A stretch of 64,000 nt of DNA from assembly GCF_022662175.1 (NCBI RefSeq), contig NZ_JAKMCR010000004.1:1-64000 (forward strand), given 5' to 3'. The notes under the pieces were generated by a model. It was not told where the DNA came from. It searched no databases and saw only the letters and a program-made list of their open reading frames with translations. Positions 10,253 through 64,000 of the stretch are shown piece by piece; the stretch's first letter is position 1, and each line of letters opens with the position of its first letter. The translations under genes were made by a program, and so were the position numbers. This DNA is from Aestuariivivens marinum. Its GTDB lineage: Bacteria > Bacteroidota > Bacteroidia > Flavobacteriales > Flavobacteriaceae.

Positions 10253-10280
10253 TGGAATGTAACTACAAATTATTTAGGTT

Positions 10281-11873: not shown

Positions 11874-11951
11874 TTGGGTTTTACGATTTCTATTTTAAAA
11901 GCATTAATTTTAAAGCGGTATTGATAATTTTTTGAAAATAGAATGTAAATA

Positions 11952-13103: not shown

Positions 13104-13187
13104 TTTTAATGTGTTTTTAATATTAATAAACTTGAATATAACTAAAAAAAGTTGCAAGTTTGTAAAATACTACGATTTATATATAGG

Positions 13188-44806: not shown

Positions 44807-44824
44807 AATACAATTTAAACTATA

Positions 44825-45592: not shown

Positions 45593-45615
45593 TAAATTAT
45601 TTTAAAAGGTAAGCA

Positions 45616-46863: not shown

Positions 46864-46876
46864 AAGTTAGTAACAA

Positions 46877-48073: not shown

Positions 48074-50320
48074 CTATAAAGTTTTGGGTGAATATACAGG
48101 CTTGAACGAATATAAGTAATTGGGAGCTGTAGGGATTGTAATAATCTCATCTTTTTCCAGATCAATTATTTCTGAGGTTCCAGAATATTCGCAAACGATT
48201 TTTGTTTGTCCCCATGGATTCAATAATTGTAATTTACCCCAAACTGTCGATACAACTTCAATATGCTCTATTTGTGAGTCGCTTTGCTTTGATGAAACAA
48301 GGAAACCACCCTGTGCCCTTAGGTTTTTAAATGTTCCGTTTTTGTGTAATGGCCACGCAGGGAAAACACGAATAATATCATCAACGCTTTGTAGTAAAAG
48401 CTCTGATATGGCTCCAGATGCCGAAAAAGTTTCAGTGTAAATTCCAAAACTGTTAAACTGATGATCTCCCGGCATAAGCGTTAATATGCCATTGCGTCTT
48501 CGTCTGGATAGAAATTCTGATTTCATCCATTCCCATGTACCTTCCAAGCTTAAACGGGCTTTGGCAACAGCCATGGTAACGGTTGAATTCACTCCGGTAC
48601 AGTTAATATTTGTTACGGTGTTTTTTAAAATTTCTTTTTCGTCCGATTCTGAAAACCACGAATATATTTCTGCAGGAAATACGGAGGCCACAGTCGTTGG
48701 AATGTTATGGTTTCGTTCTGGGTCATCTCCCGGCCAATCAACCACTACGGACGTATCACCATTAGAGATGGGCAAGTCTGGGATGAGAAGCACATTTTCT
48801 TTTATCCTATGTTCCAGATCAGTATCAAGCTCCAATAGTGCTATAGCTTCCAATGTTGATTTGAATGTCGATCTAATAAAGGCAATATCAAATGCAGAGT
48901 TGAATGTCCCAAAATCTCCATGTTCTGGACTATAACTAGGCCCTAGTATGGCTTTACCATGCTCATCTAATTTACATTGTGCAATTAGATTACAATAGAA
49001 TAGGGATATCTCTTTCAGAATAGGGTATGCAACATGTTCTAGGTAGGTTTCATTCGGGTAGTATTTGTACCGTAACCATATGTTCCGGGCAACATAACCC
49101 GAAACGCCCAAGGCATAGGACCAGGGAACATAGGCCATCATTCTTTTATTAATACTTTTGCAGTCTGCTGGATTAGGTTCATGCGCAAATATGTTGACAG
49201 GGAAACATGCACCTTCCAATCCATATGTTTCCTTGGCAAACCATTTGGCTCTGGGCATATAATCTGAAATTAATTTTGTGTAAGGTTCAGACAGCTCTCC
49301 ATGGTTTGAACTGTAGGGTCCCCAAAACGCTTGTTCCACATTATAGTCAAGTGTGTAACTACCATGCCATAAGGCATTTTCGTTCGCAGCACCGGCATAA
49401 AGGCCAATAGGGTATACGTTTGGTTTACTAACGCAACGCATAAAATATAGATTTTGATACCAAATATTGGTTAACGCTTTATCCTCCAGGTCAATGCCAC
49501 TTTTTGCCCAAAATTGATTCCAAATCGTTTCGTGGTTCGCAATCAATTCCGTTGTATTTGTACTCAGTACGTCTTTTGCTAATGCAATGGCTTCTTTTTT
49601 AGGTTGCTCAGATTCTAAAGAGCTTACAATGGCGACTACTGTTTTGCCGTTCTTTTGAGCAAGTGCAACGGCAAAACTCATGCCTTTCCAGTCTTTGTCC
49701 CCTGGAAGTTCTTGGAAAATCCATTGCACATTGTTGTCATTACCTTTTTTTGCCTGCGGAAGATGGTCAACCACAATAGACTCTAGTTCAACCTTTTCAT
49801 TTGTATCGATTAAAAATACATTTTGCTGTGCTAAAGCCCTTATGGTTAAATCTTTGTTATTCTGTTTTATTGTAGCCTTAGCATGATGGATGTTTAATTC
49901 TGAATGGAACGATCCTAAATTTTTAATAATGAGTCTGCCACAAATTCTGGGAGATGGATATGGGTTTTTCCAACTTGGAGGGGTGTCGTGTTCTTTAGCC
50001 CCTCCATGGTATTTTTGGTTGGCAACATCTATTTTCATCAGGGGAGGGTCATTTTCTGTATCTAACCTTGCATCCCAAACATCATTTTTTGATAAATGCA
50101 CCACCAAATCGTTCCCTTTCGAAAAAACCATGCCGTTGATATCTCCATTTCCCAAGAAAACAGAATTTTCGATGGGGTTGGCATGGTTCTTTTGTGCAAT
50201 AAGAGCTCCATTCAATGCTTCAGGGAACGGAATCTCTAAAGATGATTCTTCGTGTTTTTTACATGAACATAGTGTTGCTAACACCAATAAAACATGAAAT
50301 AATATCTTTGTTTTAAACAT
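48074..50320 (-). CDS. GH95-like glycoside hydrolase lipoprotein
   Basis: A 748-residue lipoprotein (signal ending LVLATLCSCKKH). It shows the layout of GH95 and clan GH-L: an N-terminal beta-sandwich (VFLGNGDINGMVFSKGNDL), an (alpha/alpha)6 barrel and a C-terminal beta domain (HLLPALP-like region as RVFPAWPLHKNGTFKNLRAQGG). Segments such as TLDYNVEQAFWGPYSSNHGE and GPSYSPEHGDFGTFNSAFD match GH95 active-site blocks but differ from the canonical enzyme at 53661-56078. It could be an alpha-L-fucosidase or alpha-L-galactosidase, or belong to a sister group. Its start overlaps the upstream GH29 stop by one base. It is the last gene of the leftward operon. Confidence 0.75.
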   Translation of the reverse strand: MFKTKILFHVLLVLATLCSCKKHEESSLEIPFPEALNGALIAQKNHANPIENSVFLGNGDINGMVFSKGNDLVVHLSKNDVWDARLDTENDPPLMKIDVANQKYHGGAKEHDTPPSWKNPYPSPRICGRLIIKNLGSFHSELNIHHAKATIKQNNKDLTIRALAQQNVFLIDTNEKVELESIVVDHLPQAKKGNDNNVQWIFQELPGDKDWKGMSFAVALAQKNGKTVVAIVSSLESEQPKKEAIALAKDVLSTNTTELIANHETIWNQFWAKSGIDLEDKALTNIWYQNLYFMRCVSKPNVYPIGLYAGAANENALWHGSYTLDYNVEQAFWGPYSSNHGELSEPYTKLISDYMPRAKWFAKETYGLEGACFPVNIFAHEPNPADCKSINKRMMAYVPWSYALGVSGYVARNIWLRYKYYPNETYLEHVAYPILKEISLFYCNLIAQCKLDEHGKAILGPSYSPEHGDFGTFNSAFDIAFIRSTFKSTLEAIALLELDTDLEHRIKENVLLIPDLPISNGDTSVVVDWPGDDPERNHNIPTTVASVFPAEIYSWFSESDEKEILKNTVTNINCTGVNSTVTMAVAKARLSLEGTWEWMKSEFLSRRRRNGILTLMPGDHQFNSFGIYTETFSASGAISELLLQSVDDIIRVFPAWPLHKNGTFKNLRAQGGFLVSSKQSDSQIEHIEVVSTVWGKLQLLNPWGQTKIVCEYSGTSEIIDLEKDEIITIPTAPNYLYSFKPVYSPKTL

Positions 50321-52092
50321 TATTTATAAACTACCTTTCTAAGGTAAACCTTTTCACTTGAAATGTTATCAGCAAGATCGAATTCAACCATAATAGAATT
50401 TTCTTCCATAGTAGGATGTGCAGTAATATTCAATTCAATTCTACTAAAAACCCGATCGACCTTGCTAAAACCAGGGGTTTCTACGCCTTGCAGAAATAAG
50501 GAAACATTAGAGGGTTTGTTTGGATTTTTGTCTTCATCATTTGATACAAACAATTCGTATAAACCAGGACGGTCTATATGGCTTGATAAATCAATTTTAA
50601 ATCGTTGCTTTTCACCTTCAAAATGAAATTGTTCTATTGTTCCAATCTCTTTCAAATCCAAGTATTCTTTAGAAACTCCTGTGCTGTAATCCCGTCCGTA
50701 ATCATCTTTTGTACTATTGAACCTGTTATAGTCTTTAGGATCGTTTACAAAGTACACGGCTAGCTTACGTATAATGGGTTCGGCAGCTTGTTCTAAGCTC
50801 CTGAATCTGATTTTCGTAACATGTACCGGGTCGAACTTATCGATACGTTTGTGGCCAATTGAAATACCTTCAACAATTTTAAACCAGTTTTTACCGTCAG
50901 TCGTTCCATCTATAGCATAGCGTCTTACCCGCTCTCCGTATGTAATGTCTTCCATGGTAATGACATGATCAATTTGGGTTTCTTTGCCCAAGTCTAGCTC
51001 AACTAGCCATCCTTTACCTGAAGTTTCTTTAATGCTCTTAGAAAAACGCTTTCTTATTTCATCTCCAAGTTGCTTGTATAGCTTCATGTCGGCTTGAGGG
51101 ATAAGTCCTGTGGTATCTGGGGCTGAGTTTAATAGAAACAATCCACCACGTCCAACAGATTTATAATAGCATTCCATTAAGTTATCCATAGATTTTAGTT
51201 TGCCTTCGTTTTCGGGCGACCAAAACCAATAATGGTCTTTTAATGTAGTGTTTACTTCCAAGGGCATCCATAAATCACCATTGGGGTCACCATGCGCAGC
51301 GGTAGCCATTCCTGTTGCCCCGTCTTCTTTCTTTACGCTATTCCATGCTGGGTATGGAGCGATACCTCTTTCGTTACCTACCCATCTAATATTCGCCATG
51401 GAACTTCCAAATACGATGGCATTGGGGGCATATTTTTCTTTGATGTCTTCTAATGGTATAATGCAATTGCCATCAAACCATATTTCAGTAGCTTCACCAT
51501 ATCGCGATAAAACTTCTTCCCACTGCTGTCTGTAAACCTTATTATAGGCTTCCTGCATATTAGGATCCTTGGTGCGCCCAGCACCACCTAAATAGGCACC
51601 ATAGGTTAAGTCTCCTGGATAAACATAAATACCAAGTTTCATACCTCTTGCTTTGCAGGCGTCGGAAAGTTCTTTTAACACATCGCCTTGACCATCTTTG
51701 TATGCCGTATTTTTTACGCTGTACTCAGATGTATCGGTTTGCCACCAACAAAAGCCACTGGAATGTTTAGCTACAAATAGAACCATTTTAGCTCCAAAGG
51801 CCTCAGCGGCATCAATCCATTGGTTGACATCTAGTTTGCTAGGATTCATTTTCTCAATAGGGTAGGTGTGGTTTCCTTGTTCTACACCTTCCCAAGTACA
51901 AGGGTCAAGACAGATAAACATGGTTTGTTCCATATCCTGCCAATCCATTTGAGCTTGAGAGGGTAGTGCTAAATTACTTTTAATGGTTTTGGGTTCTTCT
52001 GCTGTAACCCAATCCAAATTTGGATTGGTGTTGTTTTTGCAACTCTGAAAAATAATCATAAAAATTGCAGCGATAAAAAATATTCGTTTCAT
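50320..52092 (-). CDS. GH29-family enzyme lipoprotein with altered active-site histidine
   Basis: A 590-residue lipoprotein (signal ending IIFQSCKN, Cys18). The GH29 barrel spans about 40-350; the candidate nucleophile is Asp207 in EIWFDGNC, and [14 protein letters not shown] and GIYVYPGD are family blocks. At residues 58-66 the protein reads MFICLDPCT where GH29 enzymes, including the paralogue at 57925-59604, have His (MFIHFAPTT); that His normally contacts fucose. C-terminal beta-sandwich domains follow (about 370-590). The change may alter specificity or activity. It lies between a sulfatase (5 bp) and the GH95-like gene (1-bp overlap). Confidence 0.82.
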   Translation of the reverse strand: MKRIFFIAAIFMIIFQSCKNNTNPNLDWVTAEEPKTIKSNLALPSQAQMDWQDMEQTMFICLDPCTWEGVEQGNHTYPIEKMNPSKLDVNQWIDAAEAFGAKMVLFVAKHSSGFCWWQTDTSEYSVKNTAYKDGQGDVLKELSDACKARGMKLGIYVYPGDLTYGAYLGGAGRTKDPNMQEAYNKVYRQQWEEVLSRYGEATEIWFDGNCIIPLEDIKEKYAPNAIVFGSSMANIRWVGNERGIAPYPAWNSVKKEDGATGMATAAHGDPNGDLWMPLEVNTTLKDHYWFWSPENEGKLKSMDNLMECYYKSVGRGGLFLLNSAPDTTGLIPQADMKLYKQLGDEIRKRFSKSIKETSGKGWLVELDLGKETQIDHVITMEDITYGERVRRYAIDGTTDGKNWFKIVEGISIGHKRIDKFDPVHVTKIRFRSLEQAAEPIIRKLAVYFVNDPKDYNRFNSTKDDYGRDYSTGVSKEYLDLKEIGTIEQFHFEGEKQRFKIDLSSHIDRPGLYELFVSNDEDKNPNKPSNVSLFLQGVETPGFSKVDRVFSRIELNITAHPTMEENSIMVEFDLADNISSEKVYLRKVVYK

Positions 52093-52097
52093 GTGTA

Positions 52098-53657
52098 TTA
52101 ATTTAAAGTGGGTAAATGCATGTCTGTATTATGCCATTTATAATATTTATTTTTAAGGCGTTTGACCGTTTCGGGTAATGATTTTGATAAATCGTTGGAT
52201 TCTTCAATGTCATTTTTGAGATTAAATAGTTTAAGCTCTTTGGTTCTTCCAAAATATCTAAGCTTATAGTCATTATCTCTTATGGCCCATCCAGAATCAT
52301 CGCCTCCAACCGAATGGTAACTTTTGGCTTCTGTAGATTCCATATCTTCGAACTTAGGGATACTTCCAGAGAGTGAAAGGCCGGTCCAATACAGGGTTTC
52401 ATGTGGAACGGCTGTATCTTCGCCATTAAGGAAGGGCACTAGGTTTTTACCATCAAAATGTGATGACGTAAATTCAGTAATGTCATTGCAAAGTCCCATA
52501 ATGGTTGGGAAAATATCCATGGAACTTACAGCCTTGTTGTATACTGATCCTGATTGTAATTTACTAGGGAAACCAATCATGAAAGGTACTCGTAAACCGC
52601 CCTCTTCCAATAGGTATTTTCCTCCAGATAGGGGTGTGTTTTTCCCTGCTGTTCTGTCGGTTGCCCCGTTATCAGAAATGAATACAATAATAGTATTGTC
52701 CATTAGCTTTTCTTCTTCAAGTGTATTAATTATTTTTCCAACACTACTATCCAATTGGGAAAGATGCCATAATAACCGTGTTCTTCCATTCTCCATATAT
52801 TGACCTAGTCCGTCTCTAACGACCCATTCAAGAGCCTTTTCCTTCTTGGGATCCCAATTTTCGATTTTGTTGATTCCTAAACGCACCAATGCCGTATCGG
52901 GGATTTGATGGGTCCATGCGTGTACCTCGGTATAGCCCATGGTTAAAAAGAAGGGCGCTTTCTTGTTGTCTTGGATGAATTGGGTTGCCTCATCCGTTAA
53001 AATATCGGTGGTGTATCCCTCTACTTCTTTTACACTATCGTTAAAGTACCATGGACCAAATCCCCAAAAGACGTTAAGCGGTTTAGGGTATTTCGCTTGG
53101 TCTTCAAAGGTATGTGTTAAAAAATCGATCATACCACCAGTTCTTCCTACAAAATATTCATAGCCGTGGCGTCTGGGAAACTCACGTTCCATAATGCCTT
53201 CTGCTTGCCCTACATGAGATTTTCCAAATAAAGCGGTTTTGTAACCTTTACTTTTTAAATATTCGGCAAGTGTTGTCTCATCATTAGGCAAATTAGCATT
53301 TGTATAGGTGTGTGTACCCCAACGCTGATGATATCTCCCAGTTAAAATTCCCAATCTAGAAGGGGAACATATAGGAGAGGTCACATACCCTTGGGTAAAC
53401 AAGACACTACGCTGGGCAAGTTTCTCGATATTGGGTGTCTTGGCATCTGGTTCATGATTAGGATAGGCGCTGCAATCGCCATAGCCCAAATCATCTGCTA
53501 TAAGTAGTAGTATATTTGGCCTATTAACATCTGTGTTTTCTGACGCCTTTTGGCTTAATTGATTAGGGATTGAATCTACATTGATTTTGAAGGCTATCAA
53601 AAAGCAAATTATTACAGACAATGCGATAATTTTAAAAAAACGGAACTTCTTATACAT
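52098..53657 (-). CDS. Formylglycine-dependent sulfatase (family S1)
   Basis: A 519-residue type-I sulfatase with an N-terminal hydrophobic export signal (FFKIIALSVIICFLIAF). Cys97 in SPICSPSRLGILTGRYH forms the C-x-P-S-R motif for formylglycine. Metal ligands are visible in LLIADDLGYGD and FISDNGAT. It lies between two fucosidase-type genes, 3 bp after GH95 and 5 bp before GH29, so it should remove sulfate esters that block the fucosidases. Its target position on the sugar cannot be read from sequence. Confidence 0.92.
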   Translation of the reverse strand: MYKKFRFFKIIALSVIICFLIAFKINVDSIPNQLSQKASENTDVNRPNILLLIADDLGYGDCSAYPNHEPDAKTPNIEKLAQRSVLFTQGYVTSPICSPSRLGILTGRYHQRWGTHTYTNANLPNDETTLAEYLKSKGYKTALFGKSHVGQAEGIMEREFPRRHGYEYFVGRTGGMIDFLTHTFEDQAKYPKPLNVFWGFGPWYFNDSVKEVEGYTTDILTDEATQFIQDNKKAPFFLTMGYTEVHAWTHQIPDTALVRLGINKIENWDPKKEKALEWVVRDGLGQYMENGRTRLLWHLSQLDSSVGKIINTLEEEKLMDNTIIVFISDNGATDRTAGKNTPLSGGKYLLEEGGLRVPFMIGFPSKLQSGSVYNKAVSSMDIFPTIMGLCNDITEFTSSHFDGKNLVPFLNGEDTAVPHETLYWTGLSLSGSIPKFEDMESTEAKSYHSVGGDDSGWAIRDNDYKLRYFGRTKELKLFNLKNDIEESNDLSKSLPETVKRLKNKYYKWHNTDMHLPTLN

Positions 53658-53660
53658 AAA

Positions 53661-56078
53661 TCACTCTTTATTAAAATCTGAAGGAGATAATGTTGTAACA
53701 GCTCCTTGCTCTAATTCTATATTGATTCTACTGCCATTATACATTACCGAGCAGGGTTTTCCTTTTAGTGAATGAATAGTGGCCTTTTCTAAGTTGTTGT
53801 TTTTCCATGAAACATCTATTATAAAACCACCACGGGCTTTTAAACCTTTAACATGGCCTGTTTTATTTGCTGATGGTAATGCTGGTAAAAGATGAATTAT
53901 ATTGTCGTGACTTTGCAATAATTGTTCACCAATGGTCGCTGTAATGCCTAGATTACCATCAATCATCCAATATTTTGTAAAAAAATGAGAAGTGAAGTTT
54001 GGCAGCACCGCATTTTTAATATGCCTGTCCACTACATTTTGGGATTTATTACCATGACCTAATCTTGCATAGAACATGGCAGGAAAACTTCCTGTCCAAC
54101 TTCCAGAGTTATAGGATTCACCTGGTTGTCTGTATTCCAATGTTTGCTCAAAGGCTTTGGCCAAATCGGGTGAGTGGTAAGGCGATATCTGGTTGTCTGC
54201 AACTAAACCCCAACCATGTGCTACTTGACCATTTTTTGGAGCAGAGGGTTCCCAATCGTCATACCATTCTTGAAGCCTTCCTGTATTAGGGTTAATTTTC
54301 ATTGGAGGAAGTTTATCTAATCTTTCTTTTAAGGTTACGGCGAAATCACTGTCTGTATTTAGAATTTGTGATGCACTTATACAATTTTCAAACAAATCCC
54401 TAATAATCTGAATATCTTGCGTAGGTCCTTCACAAGCCCAGCCCACAGTGCGATCGGATTTTTTAAAGGTATTTTCAAAAGATACAGCTGGAGAGGTAAC
54501 AAAATAACCGTCTTTGTTTTGCTGCATACTTTCTACATAGAAAAGGGCAGCGTTTTTCATGTAAGGGTATACAGACGAAAGATAAGCTTCATCCAAATTA
54601 AATTCATAATGTTCCCAGAGGTGGTGGCATAACCAAGCGCTTCCTATTTGGTAAATGGCCCAGAGCCCCGAACCACCAACTGGAGATGTTGTTCGCCAAA
54701 TGTCTGCATTATGATGGGCTACCCAACCATTAACGCCATAAAGGTTTTTGGCTGTTTTACTACCATCGATACTTAAATCTTTAGTTAACTCAATAAGTGG
54801 TATATGGCATTCAGACAGATTCCCTGTTTCTACTGGCCAATAATTAATTTGGGCGTTACAGTTTAAGGTCCAGTTGCAGCTCCAGGCAGGTTGCATTAGT
54901 CGGCTCCAAATACCTTGAAGGTTTGCCGGTTGCGCAAAATCACCGGGTCTGGAACTGGACATAAGCAAATACCTGCCAAATTGATAATATAGTGCTATTA
55001 ATTGAGGGTCATTTCCGGGAGTGTATGCTTCTACTCTTTTATTTATGGGGATGTGATTACGGTTCTCGCCTTCAAAATCTAAGCTTACTCTATGGAACAG
55101 GGATTGATAATCTTTTAAATGATTGTTGTGTAAATCGGAATATGACTTGGTTTTAATTTTAGATAAAATGGCATTGCAAATGGCATTTTCGTCTTTTCCT
55201 GATACAGATGGGCTTTTTTCAAAACCATTAAAGCTGGTCGCTGCCGTTAAAATGAGTGTTGCATAAGAGGCATTATTTATTTGTATCCCATCGTTAGATG
55301 TGGTAATATCTCCATCGCTTTCTAATACTGAAAGCCTAATTTGAAATCGCATGCCTTTACCATCTTCATAAATGACTTCCTTAGGGCCTTCATAATGAGG
55401 GAAGGCATGTAATGGTGCTTGACCTTTTAAGATTAAATCGCCACTGTCACCAGTTGTTTCGCTTTGTATTAAGCTGTAAAGTTCGGCAGTAAAGTTTACA
55501 GAATTTTCCTTGTCTCCTGTTATTTTTACTATAATAGCATCATCTGGCTTTGAGGCAAAGACCTCTTTTTTGTAATTGACTCCACTAATATTATAGGTTG
55601 TTTTTACTAAGCCACTATTTAAATCTAGTATCCTTTTGTAGTCTGTTGTGGTCGAGCTGTTAATACCATTATGCGTTAAAATTAAATCACCCATGGGTAA
55701 ATACGACTGGTTATTAGGACCAAGCATTACAGAATCGATTAACTTTTGTGCTTCCAAGGTTTTCTTATCGGCCAACAATTGTCTTATTTCTGGGAGGTCT
55801 TTTAAGCCATGTTTGTTTTGAATATCCCTAGGCTCTCCAGACCAAAGCGTTTCTTCATTAAGTTTTATAGTGTCTACTTCGGTTCCGCCATATACCATGC
55901 CTCCTAAACGACCATTGCCTATAGGGGTGGCTTCATACCAGCTCGCTGCCTGCTGGTCCAGCCAAATACCTTTTAGGCTTTCTTGGGCTTGTTTTATATT
56001 AGTGTCTTTTTTTGGTTTTTGGTTGCAAGCATTTAGTACTAAAAAAGAAAGGATTGCAACAAATTTTAATAGTTTCAT
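53661..56078 (-). CDS. GH95 alpha-L-fucosidase lipoprotein
   Basis: An 805-residue canonical GH95 enzyme, an inverting exo-alpha-1,2-L-fucosidase family that also includes L-galactosidases. Lipoprotein signal: LVLNACNQK. Family blocks are ATPIGNGRLGGMVYGG, LNEETLWSGEP, NCNAQINYWPVETGNLSECH, the HLWEHYEF segment, SPAVSFENTFK (Glu) and GPTQDIQIIRDLF (Asp), ending in the HLLPALPSANKTGHVKGLKA domain. All expected catalytic blocks are intact. It lies 21 bp after the SDR gene and 3 bp before a sulfatase within the operon. Confidence 0.92.
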   Translation of the reverse strand: MKLLKFVAILSFLVLNACNQKPKKDTNIKQAQESLKGIWLDQQAASWYEATPIGNGRLGGMVYGGTEVDTIKLNEETLWSGEPRDIQNKHGLKDLPEIRQLLADKKTLEAQKLIDSVMLGPNNQSYLPMGDLILTHNGINSSTTTDYKRILDLNSGLVKTTYNISGVNYKKEVFASKPDDAIIVKITGDKENSVNFTAELYSLIQSETTGDSGDLILKGQAPLHAFPHYEGPKEVIYEDGKGMRFQIRLSVLESDGDITTSNDGIQINNASYATLILTAATSFNGFEKSPSVSGKDENAICNAILSKIKTKSYSDLHNNHLKDYQSLFHRVSLDFEGENRNHIPINKRVEAYTPGNDPQLIALYYQFGRYLLMSSSRPGDFAQPANLQGIWSRLMQPAWSCNWTLNCNAQINYWPVETGNLSECHIPLIELTKDLSIDGSKTAKNLYGVNGWVAHHNADIWRTTSPVGGSGLWAIYQIGSAWLCHHLWEHYEFNLDEAYLSSVYPYMKNAALFYVESMQQNKDGYFVTSPAVSFENTFKKSDRTVGWACEGPTQDIQIIRDLFENCISASQILNTDSDFAVTLKERLDKLPPMKINPNTGRLQEWYDDWEPSAPKNGQVAHGWGLVADNQISPYHSPDLAKAFEQTLEYRQPGESYNSGSWTGSFPAMFYARLGHGNKSQNVVDRHIKNAVLPNFTSHFFTKYWMIDGNLGITATIGEQLLQSHDNIIHLLPALPSANKTGHVKGLKARGGFIIDVSWKNNNLEKATIHSLKGKPCSVMYNGSRINIELEQGAVTTLSPSDFNKE

Positions 56079-56099: not shown

Positions 56100-56870
56100 T
56101 TATCTACCCATCCAACCACCGTCAACCAAGACGATGGATCCATTCATGTATTGAGAAGCATCAGAAGCCAAAAACACAATAGGTCCTGCAAAATCTTCGG
56201 GAGTACCCCATCGTCCTGCGGGTATTCGTTCTAAAATGGCTTTATTCCTATCAGGATTGTTTCTTAAAGCCTCTGTATTGTCCGTAGCGATATAGCCAGG
56301 AGCTATGGCATTTACATTTACACCTTTGCCCGCCCATTCGTTGGCGAAAGCCATGGTCATTTGGCCGATGGCACCTTTACTGGCGGCATAGCCTGGAACC
56401 GTAATGCCGCCTTGGAAGGTTAAAAGCGAAGCTGTAAACACTATTTTCCCATGTCCTCTGGCAACCATATCTTTTCCGAACTCACGTGTTAATATGAATT
56501 GGGCGTTTTGGTTGACTTCAATCACCTTGTCCCAATACTCATCTGGATGCTCTACAGCTGGAGCTCTTAAAATGGTTCCGGCATTGTTTATTAGAATATC
56601 TATTTGCGGGTGGTTGGCTTTTACCTTTTCAATAAAAGCATAAACCGCTTTTCTATCTGAAAAATCGCATTGATAGGCAGTGAAGTTTCTTCCTGTGGCT
56701 TGAACTTCTTTTTCAATAGCGCTTCCACTTAATGCTAATGAAGCGGACACACCTATAATATCTGCACCAGCTTCGGCTAACGCTACTGCCATTCCTTTAC
56801 CAATGCCTCGTTTACAACCCGTTACTAATGCTGTTTTCCCTGCTAAACTAAATTTGTTTAATATACTCAT
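56100..56870 (-). CDS. KduD-like SDR dehydrogenase
   Basis: A 256-residue short-chain dehydrogenase closely resembling KduD (2-dehydro-3-deoxy-D-gluconate 5-dehydrogenase): ALVTGCKRGIGKGMAVALAE, LINNAGTILRAPAVE, FQGGITVPGYAASKGAIG (catalytic Tyr and Lys) and the C-terminal ERIPAGRWGTPEDFAGP with VDGGWMGR. KduD acts on uronate-derived keto-deoxy acids. In a fucosidase operon the related 2-keto-3-deoxy-L-fuconate dehydrogenation is an equally good guess. It is cytosolic and lies 18 bp after the MDR dehydrogenase, with which it probably forms an oxidation branch. Confidence 0.82.
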   Translation of the reverse strand: MSILNKFSLAGKTALVTGCKRGIGKGMAVALAEAGADIIGVSASLALSGSAIEKEVQATGRNFTAYQCDFSDRKAVYAFIEKVKANHPQIDILINNAGTILRAPAVEHPDEYWDKVIEVNQNAQFILTREFGKDMVARGHGKIVFTASLLTFQGGITVPGYAASKGAIGQMTMAFANEWAGKGVNVNAIAPGYIATDNTEALRNNPDRNKAILERIPAGRWGTPEDFAGPIVFLASDASQYMNGSIVLVDGGWMGR

Positions 56871-56888
56871 TATTAATTTTTTATATCA

Positions 56889-57905
56889 TTATAAGCTACA
56901 ATCCATTAAAACTTTCATACCATCAGGATTTTGATCAATACGTTCAAAAACCTGTTGAATATCTGATAATGGTTGAACATCTGTTATCATATCTTCAAAC
57001 GGAAGTTCGTTTGCACTGATTAATGCAATTGACTTTTCGTAATCTTCTTTTTCATAGACCCGAGCACCAATCAGCTTTAATTCCTTCCAAAAGAATTTAA
57101 AAAGATTGACTGGTTTAGGCTGACCATGGATGGCGACCATGACTATGCGGCCTCGAATACCCGCTATTTCGGTCATGATATCCAGTGCTGGTTGTACACC
57201 TGCAACTTCAAAAACCACGTCGGCCAATCGACCTTCTGTTTTTTCTCTTACGTATGTAACGAGATCAATTTTTGTGGGGTTTACAGCTTCAATGCCCATG
57301 GATTGTGCCTTGGCAATACGCTTTTCGTTCACTTCGGAAACAATCACCTGCGCACCGGTTTCCTTAGCCACCAATGCAACGAGTAATCCAATGGGACCGC
57401 CACCTAGAACCACTGCCGTTTCGTCTTTGGTCAATCCACTAAGCCGAACATCGTGAGTTGCTACTGAAAGCGGCTCGATTAATGCTGCCAGTTTTAAATC
57501 GGTGTTTTCATTTAGTTTGTGCAATGTGAAGGCAGGAACATTCCAATATTCTTGCATAGCGCCTGGACTATCAATACCTATAAATTTTAAATCTTCGCAA
57601 ATATGATTGAAGCCTTTATCTGAAGGTTTTACCAAGCGATCATCTAAAGGGCGAACGACAACTTTATCACCAACTGAAAACCCTGAAACACCTTCACCAA
57701 CGGCATCGATTACTCCAGACATTTCATGTCCTATGGTTTCCGGAATATTTACACGTTGGTCCATCATGCCATGGTAGATGTGCACATCAGTACCGCAAAC
57801 ACCCACATAGGCCACTTTTATTCTGACTTCTCCTGTTTTAGGAGATTCTACTTCTTTTTCTAAAACACTAAAGGTTTTATTTCCTGTATAAACAGTAGCT
57901 TTCAT
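56889..57905 (-). CDS. Zinc-type medium-chain dehydrogenase, structural zinc loop lost
   Basis: A 338-residue MDR-family sugar or alcohol dehydrogenase. The catalytic zinc site is visible (GVCGTDVHIYHG, GHEMSG) and the NAD(P) fold has LGGGPIGLLVALV. The lobe that usually holds four structural Cys has only one (in NHICEDLKF); the preceding part reads RPLDDRLVKPSD, so the second zinc is lost. It resembles threonine and polyol dehydrogenases of the family. In this operon L-fucose, fuconate or another released sugar is the likely substrate, inferred from position. Confidence 0.82.
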   Translation of the reverse strand: MKATVYTGNKTFSVLEKEVESPKTGEVRIKVAYVGVCGTDVHIYHGMMDQRVNIPETIGHEMSGVIDAVGEGVSGFSVGDKVVVRPLDDRLVKPSDKGFNHICEDLKFIGIDSPGAMQEYWNVPAFTLHKLNENTDLKLAALIEPLSVATHDVRLSGLTKDETAVVLGGGPIGLLVALVAKETGAQVIVSEVNEKRIAKAQSMGIEAVNPTKIDLVTYVREKTEGRLADVVFEVAGVQPALDIMTEIAGIRGRIVMVAIHGQPKPVNLFKFFWKELKLIGARVYEKEDYEKSIALISANELPFEDMITDVQPLSDIQQVFERIDQNPDGMKVLMDCSL

Positions 57906-57924: not shown

Positions 57925-59604
57925 TTAATGTATTATGTTTGGCTTGAATGTAATTTCACCACTGCAGGGCGAATCAAATTTTAGTTTAAGGACGACATAT
58001 AAATTGCTGTGGTCCGTAATCTGTGCCGTTTGGTTTACGTACAATTGGTTGCTCTTAATTTGGATAAATTCATCCAAGGCTTTGTTTTCATTGTAGTACA
58101 TGGCAGCATGTTCTATTTGTACTTTTTTCCCGTCATTGGGCTTTATCTCCAAAATGTATTGTCCGGGGATATTGATTTTATCCTTTAAGTTTATTTTTAG
58201 TTCCAGATGCGTACCGTCCAAATCGGTTGTATTCCAGGAATGGACTATTTGTGGTCTTGCATAGACGTGCATTTTACGTTGTTTTGGAGGGGTGAAATCA
58301 TTGACGTAATATGCTGAAAACGATCTGATGATGGGGTCTGCTGCAGATTTGGTTATACTGAGTTTTAATTCGGTAACTTCAGTATCTTCAAAATAATCAA
58401 TTTTTTTGCGTCCTACGGAAATACCATTGACGATTTCAACCCATGTATTGTTCACTAATCCTTCTATGGTGTAGGCCCTTATGCGTTCACCATGCCGATA
58501 ATCCTCCATAGTAATGGCATGGTTAATCTTGGTGGGTTCGTTAAATTTAATGGTTACTGAGTTGCCCTTTATGTTTTTGACCTCTACCAACGGCTTTTCA
58601 AATCGGCGTTTTATTTCCTTTCCAAAATCCTGATAAAGTTTTATATCCCCTTGAGGAATCAAACCCGTGGTGTCTGGGCTGGCATTTAATAGAAAAACAC
58701 TACCATAGCCAACAGATTTATAGTAGTTTTCCATTAAATCGTCAAGGGATTTTCTACGCAGTACTTTCTTTGGCGACCAAAACCAATAGTGGTCGTATAA
58801 GGTCGTATTGGTTTCCAAAGGTGCCCAAGCATCACCATTTGGTGTGCCGTGTATTTGGGTAGAAACCCCGGTTTTTAAGTCTTCGGTTTTTACCGAATTC
58901 CATGCAGGATAAGCTAAGTTTCCAGATTCTGTTCCCGGCCACCTCAGGTTAGCATGAGGTCCCTGAAAAACAACCGCATTCTTTGCGTATTTTTCCATGA
59001 TATCGGCAATGTCTATAACACAGCTGCCATCAAACCAAACTTCGGTCATTTCACCATAGTTTGCCAAAACTTCGGTTAATTGGGTTCTAAAAATTTTGTT
59101 ATAGGCTTCTTGTTTATTTGGGTCTTGTGTTTTACCGCCACCACCAAGCATGGCGCCCCAAGTTTTGTCGCCAGGATATATATAAACACCTAAGTTTAAT
59201 CCATATTTTTTACAGGATTCTGATATTTCCTTTAATACGTCCCCTTTACCATTTTTATAGGGTGTATTTTTTATGCCGTAATTACTTGTGTCGGTTTGCC
59301 ACCAACAGAAGCCACCAGAATGTTTGGCAACAAAAATAATCTGTTTGGCACCCCAGGCCAATGCGGCCTCACACCATTGATCGGTATCTAATTTTGTTGG
59401 GTTTATGCGTTCTAAGGGTACCGAATGATCGTTTTGTTCTACCTCAGACCAGGTTGTTGGTGCAAAATGGATAAACATAATACGCTCTTGTTCGTGCCAG
59501 TTGTATTGTGCTTCAGTGGGTGTTGCCAATTTCTGGCCATGTCCCGTAATACATGCTAAAAAGAAAAGTGTATAAAATAATATAATATCGCGAAAATTTA
59601 TCAT
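57925..59604 (-). CDS. GH29 alpha-L-fucosidase
   Basis: A 559-residue exported GH29 enzyme (signal [18 protein letters not shown]). The barrel contains [16 protein letters not shown] (conserved fucose-contacting His), [22 protein letters not shown] and the nucleophile Asp192 in EVWFDGSC; beta-sandwich domains follow. It is a close paralogue of the GH29 at 50320-52092 but keeps the active-site His. Its start overlaps the MaoC stop by 4 bp (ATGA), tying glycan hydrolysis and the CoA-type genes into one transcript. Confidence 0.9.
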
Positions 59605-60059
59605 TGCTGTGTATTGTCTGTTTTTCTGTTTACCAAAAGGATGTGATCACAAACCATGACGATATCGTTATTTTGATTAAACACTTCAACGTGCTCTGTA
59701 ACTTGTCCTAAATGTGGTTTTTTGGAATCACTTTTGTCACTAATGGTTACTACGACTCGTATAGTGTCTCCAATGTAGACCGGTTTAATAAAACGCAATC
59801 TATCATAGCCTTTAGAGAAAGCTTCTGGATTTATTTCAGTGGCAGTCATGCCTATGCCAATACTAAAAGTAAGTGTGCCATGAGCAATTCTTTTTTTAAA
59901 AGATTGGGTCTTGCACCATTCGGCATCCATATGATGTGGGAAAAAATCACCGGTTTGGCCCGCATGCATCACAATATCGGTTTCGGTAATGGTTCTACCT
60001 AGAGTTTCCCTGTGGTGGCCAATTTGGTAATCTTCAAAAAATTGGGTTTTGAAATTCAT
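59601..60059 (-). CDS. MaoC-type hotdog-fold hydratase
   Basis: A 152-residue single-hotdog protein of the MaoC/(R)-specific enoyl-CoA hydratase group. The catalytic Asp-His arrangement is visible in [14 protein letters not shown], followed by [15 protein letters not shown] and [13 protein letters not shown], both typical. Family members hydrate enoyl-CoA thioesters or dehydrate hydroxyacyl-CoA. It stands between a Gfo/Idh oxidoreductase (16 bp) and a GH29 gene (4-bp overlap), and two CoA-transferases lie upstream in the same operon, so it probably acts on a CoA ester made by them. The substrate is unknown. Confidence 0.85.
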
Positions 60060-60075: not shown

Positions 60076-61152
60076 TTATGTGTTGTCCATTAACGTTTTT
60101 TTTCCCGAATCGCTCGATTGATAGGCCATCTCCACAATTTCCATGGTTTTTATAGCATCTTCAACTGAAGAAGTCAATACGTCTTGAGACCCTTCTACAA
60201 ATCGCATTAAATTGGACATAGTGCCAATGAATGCATCTGGAAACCAGCTGCCTTCAATGGTTTCCACATGCCATTCAGGATTTCCCTGATCATCTAAAAC
60301 ACAATATTCAAATGCATCTGGAACGCCATGGGGGTAATCCAATAGTAGTCCCATTTTGGCAATGATAACGCCTTTGGTGCCTTCCCATTTTATAAAACTT
60401 TCCTGGTGTTCCTTTCCAAAGTTATGATCGTGGTTTGTATTAATTGAGGCACTTAATTCGTCTCCATAATCGAATAGAATACTGCTTCTTGTTGAGGCCA
60501 CTCTAGAACTTGGATGTTTAACGGTTTTTGCCATAATGCCTTTTGGATCTCCCAAAAAAGAACGTATAACGTCAATATAATGGATGCTATGGTATAAAAT
60601 TTCAACACGTGAAATTTTGGCTAAAAAATCCCATAGATGCCAAGGCGTGTAAGTGCATAATTTTACCTTCATATCATAAACCTCACCAATAGCACCAGAA
60701 TTGATTATAGATCTAGCAGCGTTTACAAAAGGAGCAAAACGCAACTGGAAGTTAATAGCGGCAGTTAGGTTTTTAGAGTTGCAAATAGATAAAATATGCT
60801 CAGCATTTTGGAGGTTCTCTCCCATAGGTTTTTGTATTAAAACCGAAGAATTATTAGGTAATTTAGGGAGTATATTTGTGATTTCGGATGCTGGGACAGC
60901 CAAATCGAAAATAGCATGGTTTTCTTTTCCTAATTCAACCAAGGATTCAATAGTATGGCATACCGTTTTAATATTGAATTGCTCACTTAATGATTTTGAA
61001 TTATCTGGATTGAGGTCGTATATACCAATAACTTGGAAACCTGCTTTTTTATAGGCAGGTAAATGGGCATCTTTTACAATGCCTCCAGCTCCAATGATTA
61101 CAATGGGTATTTTGGTTTTAGGTAATTTAGGTTTTGATATTATAGGTATCAT
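60076..61152 (-). CDS. Gfo/Idh/MocA-family oxidoreductase
   Basis: A 358-residue NAD(P)-dependent sugar or polyol oxidoreductase. The N-terminal Rossmann fold has [21 protein letters not shown], followed by the nicotinamide-side [12 protein letters not shown] (an E-K-P motif variant with Gln). The C-terminal half is the usual beta-sheet substrate domain, with [26 protein letters not shown] giving candidate catalytic His residues. It is cytosolic, overlaps the solute-binding-protein gene by 4 bp and precedes maoC by 16 bp. The substrate is unknown; oxidation of a released sugar or sugar acid is likely. Confidence 0.85.
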
Positions 61153-62384
61153 GGGCTTTCTATGGTGTCAATTTTTTGTTGTGCTTCACTAACTAGTTGA
61201 GCTACTTTTTTATCGGTGCTAAAGAGCTCAGTAACCATAACATCTATGACTTCAGAAATTTTACTCCAGTTCATTTTTCGGGGCAAGGTTTTGGCATTGC
61301 TGTGCAACATGTCCAATTTATGATAATACGGCACGGTTTGGTTTACTTCTTGGTCTGTCCAAGTCGATTTTCTACAACCTATACCACCTTCTAGGGTGAG
61401 TAATTTATCATTTTCGGGGTTTACGGCATACTTTATAAAATCGTAGGCAATATCTTTATTTTTACTGCCTTTAGCAATGGTGTAAAGCCAATAGACGTTT
61501 AAGGAAACACCCTGTCCATTTTTACCAGCGGGCACATGGGTGATATCTACACATCCTTTTACTTTGGAGTCTGGATATACTTCGCACATCGATGCAAAAC
61601 CAAACCAGTTAACCATCATAGCTATTTCGCCATTGGCAAAGGCCATACCAGATTTCACGGAATCGAAATCATTGCATTTTGGGTGCATGGCATTAGTGTC
61701 TTTAATAATGCTTCTATAAAACTCCAATCCTTCAATAGCTTCGTTGGTGTTAATATTGATTTCCCCGTTTTTATCTAATAAATTCCCGCCTCTTGTCCAT
61801 AATTGTAAACAAAAGTCAAATACCGTGTTATGTCCATCAGGATATAAAGCAAACACAGAACCATATAAATTTTTATCTGGTCGGTTAAAAAAACGTGCAA
61901 TCTCATGAAACTCATCCCATGTGGTGGGTGGTTTTAAGTCTCTATTGTGTTGTGCTTTAAAATCTTGTTGTTCTTTAGGGTCTTCAAACAGGTCCTTTCT
62001 GTATATTAAACATTCTGGGCCATCATGAAAAGGAAGGCCAAGTACCATACTCTCAAAACGTTGCATATGTAGTAACGAATCGGACCAGCCATTAGGATAA
62101 TTTTGTGGAGCACTTGATGTAATATATGGTGTTAAATCCTCTAAGGCATTTTTGTGTTGCGCTTCTGTAATCCAATCGGTATTGATATGAGCTATATCCC
62201 AATCGCCATTTACTAAGCCATTCTCTTTACCAAGCGTGGCATCATAAAGCGGGTGTAAATCCATGGGAACTGCTTCTAGTTCCATAGTGCAATGATGTGT
62301 TTTACAAAATGCATCCCAAGTTTTCTGTAAGGCAGTTTCAAAGGGTCCAAATTTCCGAACGGCAATTCTAATTTTATTACTCAT
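61149..62384 (-). CDS. Family-1 solute-binding protein without a signal peptide
   Basis: A 411-residue protein with the full two-lobe fold of ABC sugar-binding proteins (MSNKIRIAVRKFGPFETAL start; GDWDIAHINTDWI; GLPFHDGPECLIYRKDLF; FANGEIAMMVNWFGF). The first residues are already the first beta-strand of the mature fold. Upstream in frame only three codons separate the ATG from a stop, so no export signal can be added. No permease or ATPase gene is nearby. It therefore appears to stay in the cytosol, linked by overlap or short spacing to a CoA-transferase (5 bp) and a Gfo/Idh gene (4-bp overlap). It may have become an enzyme, a chaperone of an intermediate, or a sensor. Confidence 0.8.
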   Translation of the reverse strand: MSNKIRIAVRKFGPFETALQKTWDAFCKTHHCTMELEAVPMDLHPLYDATLGKENGLVNGDWDIAHINTDWITEAQHKNALEDLTPYITSSAPQNYPNGWSDSLLHMQRFESMVLGLPFHDGPECLIYRKDLFEDPKEQQDFKAQHNRDLKPPTTWDEFHEIARFFNRPDKNLYGSVFALYPDGHNTVFDFCLQLWTRGGNLLDKNGEININTNEAIEGLEFYRSIIKDTNAMHPKCNDFDSVKSGMAFANGEIAMMVNWFGFASMCEVYPDSKVKGCVDITHVPAGKNGQGVSLNVYWLYTIAKGSKNKDIAYDFIKYAVNPENDKLLTLEGGIGCRKSTWTDQEVNQTVPYYHKLDMLHSNAKTLPRKMNWSKISEVIDVMVTELFSTDKKVAQLVSEAQQKIDTIESP

Positions 62385-62389
62385 GACTA

Positions 62390-63532
62390 CTATAAATTAA
62401 ATTCTAATTCAATATTTTTAGTGTGTTCTCCTAAACCAGGTGTACCTTTTGAAGATAATAATATTTCACCATCTATCCTAATGGGACACCGCGTTGTTTT
62501 AAATTTAAAACCATCTCCCATTTTTACTTCTTGTTCCATATTTAGCACTTGGTAGGCCTCCGTCTTCATTAATCGTTCCCAATCCATCACATCTGCACAC
62601 CATATATCGGCAGGTTCTAGGATGGATAGCCATTTTTGGCTGGTGTCTGTAGCCAAATACTCGGACAGCACCTCTTTTATTTCGTTCCTTTGATCAAACC
62701 AAGAGTTAATGTCTTGATATGTTGTTAGTTGTTCACAACCCAAAAGTTCGCCCAACACGGGGATTTGCCCCATGGCCAAAGCTAAATATCCGTCTTTTGT
62801 TTTATAAATGCCGTAGGGTGCGCCCAGATAGGCATGGGCATTATTGCTATTGGTCCTTACTGTGGGCTGTCCGCCATCAGCATAATACGTCGTGATGGTT
62901 TCAAATTGAAAGTCCAATATGGATTCCAGCATGCTTACTGCTACTTTGGCGCCTTTGCCCGTAATGCTTTTACGTACTAACGCGGCTAAAATACCTTGAA
63001 CCAAATGGGCACCTGAAATAATATCGACAATCGCCAACCCCATGGGTACTGGACCATCATGTTCGTTACCGCTAAGCCAGGTTAGACCGGAAAGGGATTG
63101 GAGCAAAAGGTCTTGCCCTGGTTTGTCTTTCCAAGGCCCTTCTGGACCATAACCAGATATTTCACCATAAACTATTTTTGGGTTTAGTTTAGAAACGGTT
63201 TTATAATCCAACCCTAAGCGATCAATAACGCCAGGCCTGAAGTTGTGAATAACCACATCGGCTTTTTCAATAAGCTTTTTTATTCTGGAGCAGTCCTCTT
63301 CATCTTTTAAATTAGCAACAAAACTTTCTTTGTTTCTATTGATAGCATGAAAAACGGTTGAGTCATCATTCATTTTAACATTAGACACATAAAGTGTTCT
63401 GCATATGTCGCCTATTTCTGGACGTTCAATTTTAATAACACGCGCTCCCAAATCTGCGAGTTTTAAACTTGCTGAAGGCCCTGATAAAAACTGACTTAAA
63501 TCTACAACCAATATGTCTTCAAGGGGCTTCAT
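62390..63532 (-). CDS. CaiB/BaiF-type (class III) CoA-transferase
   Basis: A 380-residue family III CoA-transferase. Opening [28 protein letters not shown], the [13 protein letters not shown] segment and catalytic Asp in [14 protein letters not shown] are diagnostic; the middle reads [24 protein letters not shown]. Family members move CoA between carboxylic acids such as carnitine, oxalate or 2-hydroxy acids. It overlaps the upstream paralogue by 4 bp and lies 5 bp before the solute-binding-protein gene. With MaoC downstream it implies that a sugar-derived acid is handled as a CoA ester. Confidence 0.9.
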
Positions 63533-64000
63533 AAATTGAATTCTTTAATTATTTTATCAGTGTCCTCGCCAACTTTTGGGGCTGCTTTTTCATTATAATA
63601 GCGTTCATCATCAATTCTGATGGGGCAGCGTGTTGTGCGTATAACTTGACCATCAGAATTTTTAATTAACTGATCCATGCGCAACACTTTGTAAGCGTCA
63701 TGTTCCAATATATCTTTATAGGTGTACACATTGGAACACCAAACATCTGCAGCTTCTAAAATGGTTAGCCATGCTTCGGTGTCTTTGGTTATAAAAATAG
63801 AGCGTAATATATCCATGATGTCATCACGCTTTTCAAACCAGCTTTCTGTAGATTTATAGGCTTCGGGTAATTCAAGGTTTAATAGAGGTACTAAGGTTGT
63901 TAATGGCGTCATGGCCATGGAAATATAGCCGTTTTTTGTTTTGTAAATACCATAAGGTGCACTTAAATAGGCATGGGCATTCCCTTCTTTAGCACGTTTG
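63529..64000 (-). CDS. Second CaiB/BaiF CoA-transferase, C-terminal part (cut by window edge)
   Basis: The frame is open to the right edge; the visible 156 residues begin [20 protein letters not shown] and correspond to the C-terminal part of the neighbouring CoA-transferase ([20 protein letters not shown]). The internal ATG at 63918 is not the start. The two are paralogues in tandem, overlapping by 4 bp (ATGA). Together they may form a heteromeric transferase or act on two acids. The catalytic Asp lies outside the window. Confidence 0.85.

Follow-up and report, generated by a model that had tools for sequence, protein, structure and literature searches.

Two solute-binding-fold proteins without export signals flank a CaiB-type CoA-transferase pair and point to a role outside transport

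Results

A sugar-catabolic operon with two solute-binding-fold proteins

The stretch of Aestuariivivens marinum DNA that we analysed (64,000 nucleotides; hereafter the window) ends inside an operon carried on the minus strand. It includes the gene for SBP1 (61149..62384), a signal-less protein of 411 amino acids with the SBP_bac_1 fold. It is preceded, at a distance of 5 bp, by the gene for CaiB1 (62390..63532), a class III CoA-transferase of 380 amino acids with a conserved Asp170 (Pfam CoA_transf_3, 7e-98), and by that for CaiB2, a second CoA-transferase of 380 amino acids that is cut by the window end (63529..64000; complete at C8:63529-64671). On its other side, SBP1 overlaps by 4 bp with the gene for a Gfo/Idh/MocA-type oxidoreductase of 358 amino acids (60076..61152; Pfam GFO_IDH_MocA, 1.7e-9, and C3, 8.1e-10). 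Both this overlap and the 5-bp spacing had been given correctly in an earlier note on this DNA.

The genes that follow, again on the minus strand, encode a MaoC hydratase/dehydratase of 152 amino acids (59601..60059; Pfam MaoC_dehydratas, 2.8e-25; C-terminal part of NCBIfam PaaZ, 3.7e-25, under cut-off), a GH29-type alpha-L-fucosidase whose gene overlaps that of MaoC by 4 bp (57925..59604; Pfam Alpha_L_fucos, 4.9e-29), a Tdh/IolM-like zinc alcohol dehydrogenase (56889..57905; Pfam ADH_zinc_N, 8e-26; NCBIfam tdh, 1.3e-55, under cut-off), a KduD-like short-chain dehydrogenase (56100..56870; NCBIfam kduD, 333.6 bits against a cut-off of 338.85), a GH95 protein of the alpha-L-fucosidase family (53661..56078; Pfam Glyco_hydro_95_cat, 4.9e-134) and a sulfatase (52098..53657; Pfam Sulfatase, 3e-53). 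The fucosidase, the GH95 protein and the sulfatase have signal-like N-termini. A second GH29-like gene (50320-52092) and a second GH95-like gene (48074-50320), together spanning 48074..52092, complete this closely spaced run.

Just beyond the window edge, and missed by the earlier note, a second signal-less SBP-fold protein, SBP2, is encoded on the minus strand (C8:64682-65830), 10 bp from CaiB2. A RhaT-type symporter (C8:65858-66922, minus strand) heads the operon at a distance of 27 bp from SBP2, and an IclR regulator (C8:67043-67822, plus strand) is divergently oriented. The claim that SBP1 has no transporter is therefore right only in part, and the statement that no permease or ATPase lies near is right for ABC parts and fails for the RhaT-type permease, which is found upstream of a window that ends within CaiB2.

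Both proteins have a complete sugar-binding fold and lack an export signal

SBP1 matches Pfam SBP_bac_1 (PF01547) with 93.3 bits (3.6e-26) against a cut-off of 26, which places it in this fold family; it likewise matches the SBP_bac_8 profile (1.7e-24). Its AlphaFold2 model (pLDDT 94.0, pTM 0.89) shows a full-length SBP_bac_1 fold with 6dtq as the best Foldseek match (TM 0.85) and 5iai at a TM of 0.86. SBP2 scores 44.7 bits against the same Pfam profile and cut-off and belongs to the same fold family; it was matched by Foldseek to 1eu8 with a TM of 0.86. Both proteins are confidently modeled, and the models predict closed-like sugar-binding folds.

The first strand of the SBP1 model is formed by residues 4-10 and consequently leaves no space for a signal peptide. 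An in-frame stop does exclude such a peptide further upstream, as previously claimed; this TAA is the fifth codon upstream, not the third, and the four sense codons in between contain no ATG, GTG or TTG. For SBP2, the in-frame stop lies ten codons upstream, again with no start codon in between. A mis-called start concealing a signal peptide is thereby ruled out for both proteins. When the highest 12-residue hydropathy value was recorded in the first 45 residues, SBP1 peaked at 0.59, as compared to 2.57-3.38 in five glycosidase and sulfatase proteins of the same window that have signal-like N-termini; controls from six neighboring gene clusters, four of them identified, were scanned over 60 residues instead of 45. 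With this hydropathy scan, the signal-like N-terminus expected of an importer's binding protein was found in 0/80 SBP1 and 0/72 SBP2 homologues. Open reading frames in the homologues were called from the first start codon, which adds extra N-terminal residues in a few of them (e.g., L062, L063, L069, L073, L074); these additions contain no hydrophobic stretch. SBP1 hence appears to be a cytosolic protein. Coordinates, Pfam match, hydropathy and modeled first strand all agree with the earlier description of a full-length, signal-less sugar-binding fold, and the signal peptides that would have spoken against it were sought by hydropathy and found in none of the 80 homologues.

Recurrence and gene order

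We assembled the homologue set from the best 80 of 139 relatives found, the other 59 remaining outside all counts, and inspected a locus of up to 10 kb on each side of each SBP1 homologue. Judged by record titles, the homologues are spread over four phyla, a recurrence that rules out chance or artefact as the source of our observation, and their genes recur in the order SBP2-CaiB2-CaiB1-SBP1-Gfo/Idh-MaoC. CaiB proteins are encoded in 76/80 loci, two of them in 68 (a fused protein being counted as two) and one in eight; a Gfo/Idh cluster is represented in 70/80, and a MaoC protein with more than 50% identity in 68/80. The expectation that homologues always adjoin CaiB and MaoC genes is thus nearly, if not fully, borne out, and the linkage of a signal-less SBP fold to CaiB-type CoA-transferases and MaoC within a catabolic operon is upheld.

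SBP2 occupies its own conserved place in 72/80 loci. For seven of the eight loci without it, SBP2 is encoded elsewhere in the genome; in G536 it is absent from both the locus and the rest of the genome. Seven single-CaiB loci retain both SBPs (L008, L066, L073, L074, L077, L079, L080), and the genome of L008 possesses an additional full cluster (L029). In the four loci without CaiB, SBP1 adjoins a second type of MaoC in three cases; in the fourth, it adjoins a lyase and lies near a fuconolactonase-like protein. In L007, L009, L010, L019, L023 and L024, a gene for this second MaoC type or for a glycosidase is inserted between CaiB2 and CaiB1.

The family is sporadic. It was found in 5/149 relatives (E 1e-30) and in at least 13/395 genomes of a phylum sample (E 1e-60), this genome included in both counts, and in at least 1/294 genomes of a sample around a planctomycete (E 1e-60), namely the centre genome itself; the latter two numbers are lower bounds because first-look candidates were scored in part in some genomes. 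Among the 61/80 loci having all five families, mean pairwise identity amounts to 0.58 for SBP1, 0.62 for SBP2 and 0.66 for CaiB, and the distances of the five families correlate with r values of 0.52-0.85, which speaks for joint inheritance and is no proof of contact.

Transport genes in this genome and around the homologues

No parts of an ABC importer, neither a cognate permease pair nor an ATPase, are encoded in this operon. The genome has three PF00528 permease matches, two of them Opp-type; the third is most likely the permease at 16088-16846 that adjoins a ModA-like protein. PF02653 permeases had no match in this genome. In the relative G009, five SBP_bac_1 proteins co-exist with 0 PF00528 and 0 PF02653 matches. 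G020, G022 and G064 have just two SBP_bac_1 matches each, SBP1 and a protein at the SBP2 position.

Other types of transporters are frequent: RhaT was found in at least 29/80 loci by clustering (the RhaT of L069 falls outside the cluster), and an MFS cluster, whose sole scanned member is FucP-like, in 36/80. The permeases at the loci were screened with a small home-made query set that is blind to ribose-type permeases and that included an SBP and other open reading frames, so that SBP1 itself matched. L084 carries two ABC permeases adjoining an exported SBP of their own. On the opposite strand, L045 contains a whole importer of the ribose type, made up of a PF02653 permease, an ATPase and a binding protein of its own (Peripla_BP_4); L050 and L057 have genes of equal size that fall into the same clusters. 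ABC-ATPase-like open reading frames occur in seven loci (L016, L042, L045, L050, L057, L058, L070); in four loci other than L084, L045, L050 and L057, an ABC ATPase is at least 5 kb distant. The importers of L084 and L045 are not co-conserved with SBP1.

Conserved residues in SBP1 and in the CaiB pair

Nine SBP1 residues (R10, D70, H120, C125, D183, H185, W260, C337, R338) are identical in 81/81 sequences, and W299 is kept in 79/81. Pocket positions were taken from a sequence alignment, in which W260 and W299 coincide with the two positions that stack against the sugar in TMBP. A transporter-free fold with conserved reactive residues is the pattern of an SBP-fold enzyme; its presence in SBP1 is suggestive of catalysis, although strong conservation by itself does not prove it.

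CaiB1 and CaiB2 are adjacent paralogues with 54% identity. They are fused in 5 loci and hence probably function as a pair. Their CoA_transf_3 match and catalytic-type Asp assign both to the class III CoA-transferases: Asp170 of CaiB1 aligns with an Asp of 9br6, the residue is D in 146/146 aligned CaiB domains (proteins >340 amino acids), and we presume its catalytic role from the correspondence to Frc Asp169.

Discussion

SBP1 and SBP2 share the two-lobed fold of sugar-type transport SBPs such as MalE3 of T. maritima (6dtq), Arad_9887 (5iai), TMBP of T. litoralis (1eu8) and SmoF (7ofy/7yzs), and SBP1 retains both sugar-stacking Trp positions of TMBP. Identity to these proteins is about 22% for SBP1 and 14-18% for SBP2. 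Unlike them, SBP1 and SBP2 possess neither a signal peptide nor an ABC permease/ATPase partner and are sited in a CoA-transferase operon; SBP1 moreover has His, Cys, Asp and Arg residues that are invariant among its homologues. Among the 50 Foldseek matches listed for each protein there was no SBP enzyme; the SBP1 list shows transport SBPs, and that of SBP2 contains fusions with an MBP tag in addition. MqnA/MqnD and Thi5 are SBP-fold enzymes, and several enzymes with such a fold catalyze dehydratase- or lyase-type reactions. Together with cyclohexadienyl dehydratase they sit in other branches of the fold than SBP_bac_1; we know of no enzyme in this sugar branch. PMC7683729 describes the evolution of cyclohexadienyl dehydratase from an SBP and the compactness of its catalytic states, and thus an SBP fold made into an enzyme, as we infer for SBP1 and SBP2.

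For the CaiB pair, parallels are provided by benzylsuccinate CoA-transferase, a two-subunit enzyme (chains A and B of 9fn0) that recalls the adjacent CaiB1 and CaiB2, and by succinate-HMG CoA-transferase (9br6), with which the catalytic-type Asp is shared. With two CaiB proteins in 68/80 loci and fusions in 5, the pair may form a single heteromeric enzyme of the BbsEF/SmtAB type. In contrast to the 9fn0 and 9br6 enzymes, the pair studied here is flanked by two SBP-fold proteins and accompanied by Gfo/Idh and MaoC. We found no description of this arrangement among the titles and abstract openings listed by our searches of an open-access library, subscription papers and preprints lying largely outside its scope.

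Genes of known sugar pathways, among them a FucP-like MFS, RhaT and a fuconolactonase-like gene (205 bits, below the cut-off of 400), occur near other members of the SBP1 family. Six loci (L032, L041, L042, L049, L056, L064) have an OiaX-like and an OiaK-like gene directly 3' of the one for MFS; those of L032 score 503.4 and 480.9 bits against a cut-off of 700, and such genes were seen in relatives only. With such scores, and in some loci only, the apionate pathway was not adopted as the function of the SBP1 operon. To our knowledge, the published 3-oxo-isoapionate and L-fucose/L-fuconate pathways contain neither a CaiB nor an SBP step.

A non-transport role of SBP1 and SBP2 is well supported. 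A protein without export signal, a second SBP and a gene set for CoA compounds together make chemistry or substrate hand-over probable. In the pathway that we envisage, exported GH29, GH95 and sulfatase enzymes would release a sugar that RhaT, or in relatives a FucP-like MFS, would import; Gfo/Idh, the zinc alcohol dehydrogenase and the KduD-like dehydrogenase would carry out redox steps; the CaiB2/CaiB1 pair would place CoA onto the resulting acid via an Asp-CoA intermediate; and MaoC would hydrate or dehydrate the CoA ester. For SBP1 and SBP2 themselves we consider an enzymatic role most likely, in a step of the dehydratase, lyase or isomerase type; closure of their domains would bury the substrate between Arg, His, Asp, Cys and Trp side chains that are invariant. 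What we infer is that both proteins are catalytic, which type of reaction they perform, on which substrate, and in which order the steps proceed. That these transport-derived folds work in the cytosol, most likely as enzymes, in a pathway that runs through CoA esters of a monosaccharide-derived acid, be it of the deoxy-hexose or the branched type, is a reading that we put at slightly under an even chance.

The earlier note had left open whether SBP1 channels, senses or converts an intermediate. We favor conversion, and its main rival is presentation to CaiB: as non-catalytic subunits of a CaiB2/CaiB1 complex, the SBPs would each bind the acid in the cytosol, either free or as its CoA ester, and pass it to a CaiB active site. 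The position of both SBP genes, which flank the CaiB pair at 10 bp and 5 bp, fits such a complex, as does a CaiB gene directly 5' of SBP1 in 68/80 loci; the 5 fusions point to a CaiB pair, and a pure binder would be expected to keep W260 and W299 as well. Nevertheless, we regard presentation as somewhat unlikely, since the class III CoA-transferases known to us work without a binding subunit, and SBP1 without CaiB in 4/80 loci, along with both SBPs in seven single-CaiB loci (in the case of L008 in a genome with a second full cluster), speaks more for an enzyme that acts on its own than for a subunit of CaiB. It is a rather improbable alternative that the SBPs are cytosolic sensors or buffers that report a sugar or acid to the operon, for instance with IclR, or shield an unstable intermediate. 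According to PMC9602780, cytosolic proteins and sensor domains can carry SBP signatures, too, and an IclR of one cluster is represented in 30/80 loci; however, this cluster is missing in the other 50, no window protein has a fused output domain, the SBP genes lie within the enzyme run and away from the regulator, and two different sensors that almost always occur together would be odd.

A last reading would have SBP1 and SBP2 exported along an unrecognized route to serve a conventional ABC importer whose other genes lie elsewhere; the Pfam names, the sugar-binding fold and the ABC parts seen at some loci would agree with it. We reject this very improbable reading, as export signals are lacking throughout by hydropathy, no fitting ABC permease was found in the genomes searched (G009 having none of either PF00528 or PF02653), the L084 and L045 importers have their own binding proteins, and this operon already contains RhaT as an importer.

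The Pfam label "extracellular solute-binding protein" consequently misleads for proteins that some carrier genomes cannot use as importer parts, and it has concealed a conserved multi-gene pathway. More tentatively still than catalysis as such, SBP1 and SBP2 may be the first SBP_bac_1-fold enzymes; together with two CaiB proteins and MaoC they would make up a so far undescribed route over CoA thioesters, through which bacteria of sea and soil degrade a deoxy or branched sugar acid that is set free from polysaccharides of algae or plants. Should the two proteins be enzymes, a very widespread binding fold would acquire a catalytic branch with its origin in a linked pair, and degradation of a sugar acid as its CoA ester would be shown; if they are presenters, they would represent a new mode of feeding a CoA-transferase.

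Genomic context and N-terminus of SBP1

The gene for SBP1 (61149-62384, minus strand), the protein with the fold of a solute-binding protein (SBP) on which this analysis centers, is an intact ORF encoding 411 aa that matches the SBP_bac_1 (3.6e-26) and SBP_bac_8 (1.7e-24) models in a Pfam profile search. An SBP-fold ORF devoid of a signal peptide, as proposed in the earlier note, is borne out by an in-frame stop five codons upstream without another start codon in between, by an AlphaFold2 model in which the first strand (residues 4-10) begins almost at the N-terminus, and by the hydropathy of the first 45 residues, 0.59 versus 2.57-3.38 in five window-encoded glycosidases/sulfatase whose N-termini are signal-like. 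Only low scores are informative in this metric, as the Gfo/Idh protein encoded downstream (60076-61152, minus strand) reaches 2.49 owing to its very hydrophobic Rossmann strand.

Contig C8 is 232,298 bases long, of which the window takes up the first 64000, and the class III CoA-transferase gene cut at its edge, CaiB2 (C8:63529-64671, minus strand), is complete on the contig. It is followed on the same strand by the gene for SBP2 (C8:64682-65830, or 1683-2831 of the source locus L087), a second signal-less SBP-fold protein (382 aa; SBP_bac_1 2.3e-11), and by that for a homologue of the RhaT-type L-rhamnose:H+ symporter (C8:65858-66922; 1.6e-57). A divergent IclR regulator gene (C8:67043-67822, plus strand) adjoins the RhaT end of this run. 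As the 14 genes from RhaT through the second GH95 are spaced by only -4 to 27 bp, they likely form one operon. The lack of a transporter originally claimed for this region holds for ABC components only.

Elsewhere in the window, UxaC, SDR, NRAMP-family metal transporter and UxuA genes lie consecutively (43400-47944, plus strand) and make up a hexuronate cluster with a metal transporter among its genes. An ORF of 787 aa (40958-43321, plus strand) without a Pfam match at 0.001 is flanked by UxaC and a GH2-like gene.

Structure and conservation of the two binding-protein folds

Both SBP1 (pLDDT 94.0, pTM 0.89) and SBP2 (94.8, 0.91) are predicted by AlphaFold2 to adopt full sugar-type SBP folds. 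The models represent the closed form, since they fit ligand-bound MalE3 (SBP1: TM 0.85, 2.7 Å; SBP2: 0.82) better than apo MalE3 (0.76, 4.3 Å and 0.75, respectively). The two proteins are only remotely related (hhalign 96%, 16% identity).

Residues R10, D63, D70, H120, C125, R129, D183, H185, W260, C337 and R338 are invariant in all 81 aligned SBP1 proteins; W299 is kept in 79 of them, and D121 is replaced by N in eight. In an HMM alignment, W260 and W299 fall on the sugar-stacking tryptophans of TMBP. Among 73 SBP2 proteins, W12, H14, R16, R42, D65, D117, R126 and others are invariant. Judged by mean pairwise identity over 61 of the 80 loci, the conservation of SBP1 (0.58) and SBP2 (0.62) nearly equals that of CaiB (0.66) and Gfo (0.68) and lies below that of MaoC (0.78).

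Distribution of the family and its gene neighborhood

A scan of 84,980 species genomes yielded 139 SBP1 relatives; the locus counts cover the best 80 of these, with up to 10 kb on each side. By record title, the family is found mostly in Bacteroidota, furthermore in Acidobacteriota, one planctomycete and one Chloroflexota MAG, and it is sporadic (5/149 relatives and at least 13/395 in a phylum sample, both including the source genome). The hydropathy scan extends the absence of signal peptides to the homologues: none of the 80 SBP1 and none of the 72 neighboring SBP2 proteins has a signal-like N-terminus (maximum 1.57 and 0.98). As a rough control, six neighbor clusters whose proteins should be exported (GH106, GH29-type, sulfatase, SusD and two others), scanned over 60 residues versus 45 for the SBPs, have medians of 2.4-2.7; their single lowest values (0.78-2.15) overlap those of the SBPs, perhaps through mis-called starts.

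The expectation that signal-less homologues always neighbor CaiB and MaoC proved too strict: CaiB is present in 76/80 loci, as two copies in 68 and one in eight, and none in four, and MaoC (>50% identity; 59601-60059, minus strand, in the window) in 68/80. SBP2 occurs in 72/80 loci, Gfo/Idh in 70/80, an MFS cluster in 36/80 (the only member scanned resembles FucP, with 370 bits against a cut-off of 280), IclR in 30/80, the RhaT cluster in 29/80 and a second MaoC type in 15/80. Directly 5' of SBP1 lies CaiB (68/80), MaoC type 2 (4/80) or none of this set (8/80); directly 3' lies Gfo (63/80), MaoC type 2 (3/80), MaoC (2/80) or none of them (12/80). For seven of the eight loci without SBP2, it is encoded elsewhere in the genome; it was not found in the genome of the Anaerolineae MAG G536.

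Three loci (L036, L038 and L046, about 8500-13300) carry an SBP1 paralogue without CaiB, then the second MaoC type, and an adjoining GH29-like gene; L046 also has a URO-D/MtaA-like methyltransferase gene and L036 a radical SAM gene. This gene content suggests a related but different pathway. The Chloroflexota homologue in L084 (6922-11197) adjoins a cycloisomerase/ADSL-type lyase, near a fuconolactonase-like amidohydrolase (below cut-off); no CaiB was found in this locus and no SBP2 in its genome.

CaiB1 (62390-63532, minus strand) and CaiB2 resemble SUGCT, formyl-CoA and benzylsuccinate CoA-transferases, and the CaiB Asp is kept in all 146 aligned domains. Five Hymenobacter loci (L047, L051, L055, L062 and L063, about 7540-9990) encode a CaiB2-CaiB1 fusion of 793-815 aa, a sign that the two may act as a pair; its N half is nearer to CaiB2 and its C half to CaiB1. 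MaoC matches the hydratase part of PaaZ. The gene content of the loci (GH29, GH95, GH106, RhaT, FucP-like MFS) points to glycans of the L-fucose/L-rhamnose type, and OiaX/OiaK-like genes in six loci, whose scores fall short of the curated cut-offs in the single locus scanned, point to a branched sugar acid. The order of pathway steps is one that we infer.

ABC importers in SBP1-containing genomes

The source genome has three matches to the permease family PF00528, two of them Opp-type and the third most likely the window permease (16088-16846, plus strand), and no match to the ribose-type family PF02653. Its three SBP_bac_1 matches are SBP1, SBP2 and the ModA-like protein of the window. The latter (13152-14663, plus strand; 503 aa) has two stretches, perhaps tandem domains, that match the ModA and SBP_bac_11 models; it is followed by an aminotransferase, the PF00528 permease and an ABC ATPase (16849-17499, plus strand), an order unusual for a molybdate-type importer.

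Genome G009 (99% complete) has five SBP_bac_1 matches (two SBP1, two at SBP2 places, one other) and neither a PF00528 nor a PF02653 match. SBP_bac_1 matches are limited to two in each of G020, G022 and G064 (SBP1 and a protein whose place and size agree with SBP2); these genomes have three PF00528 matches apiece and none to PF02653. Other SBP1 genomes are richer in ABC importers, with up to 121 PF00528 matches (G536) and PF02653 matches in G299 and G168, so that the argument against an importer role rests on the permease-lacking genomes and on gene order. Among the 80 loci, MalFG-type permease matches occur only in L084, beside their own exported SBP; L045 has a ribose-type importer with its own Peripla_BP_4 protein on the opposite strand, genes of equal size from the same clusters occur in L050 and L057, and in four further loci an ABC ATPase gene lies some way off. 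No ABC component is conserved with SBP1 in these loci. Permease-lacking genomes and gene order make it highly improbable that SBP1 and SBP2 are hidden parts of an ABC importer.

Possible functions of SBP1 and SBP2

MqnA and MqnD are enzymes built on the SBP fold. A further SBP has evolved into a dehydratase, as described in PMC7683729, and this precedent is one reason why we tentatively favor SBP1 and SBP2 as SBP-fold enzymes. Their reactive residues are kept without exception, SBP1 persists in four loci that have no CaiB close by, and in seven loci (six acidobacterial by title) both SBPs persist alongside just one CaiB. The close flanking of the CaiB pair by SBP1 and SBP2 and the preserved sugar-stacking tryptophans would also suit subunits that present a substrate to CaiB, a role that we consider rather unlikely when set against the loci just named; a function as sensors is more doubtful still.

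PMC9602780, which surveyed SBPs across 49 model strains, points out that cytosolic proteins are among those retrieved by Pfam SBP profiles and make up about 1% of the automatic retrievals. With an E-value limit of 1e-4, hits to the 81 SBP1 proteins come from just three NCBIfam models, all for transporter-type SBPs; the strongest hit, to MalE, has an E-value of 1.5e-10. No description of the SBP-CaiB arrangement emerged from searches of an open-access library. SBP1 and SBP2 combine a known fold with a new cellular place and partnership, and there is a fair chance that they represent a new enzyme class.
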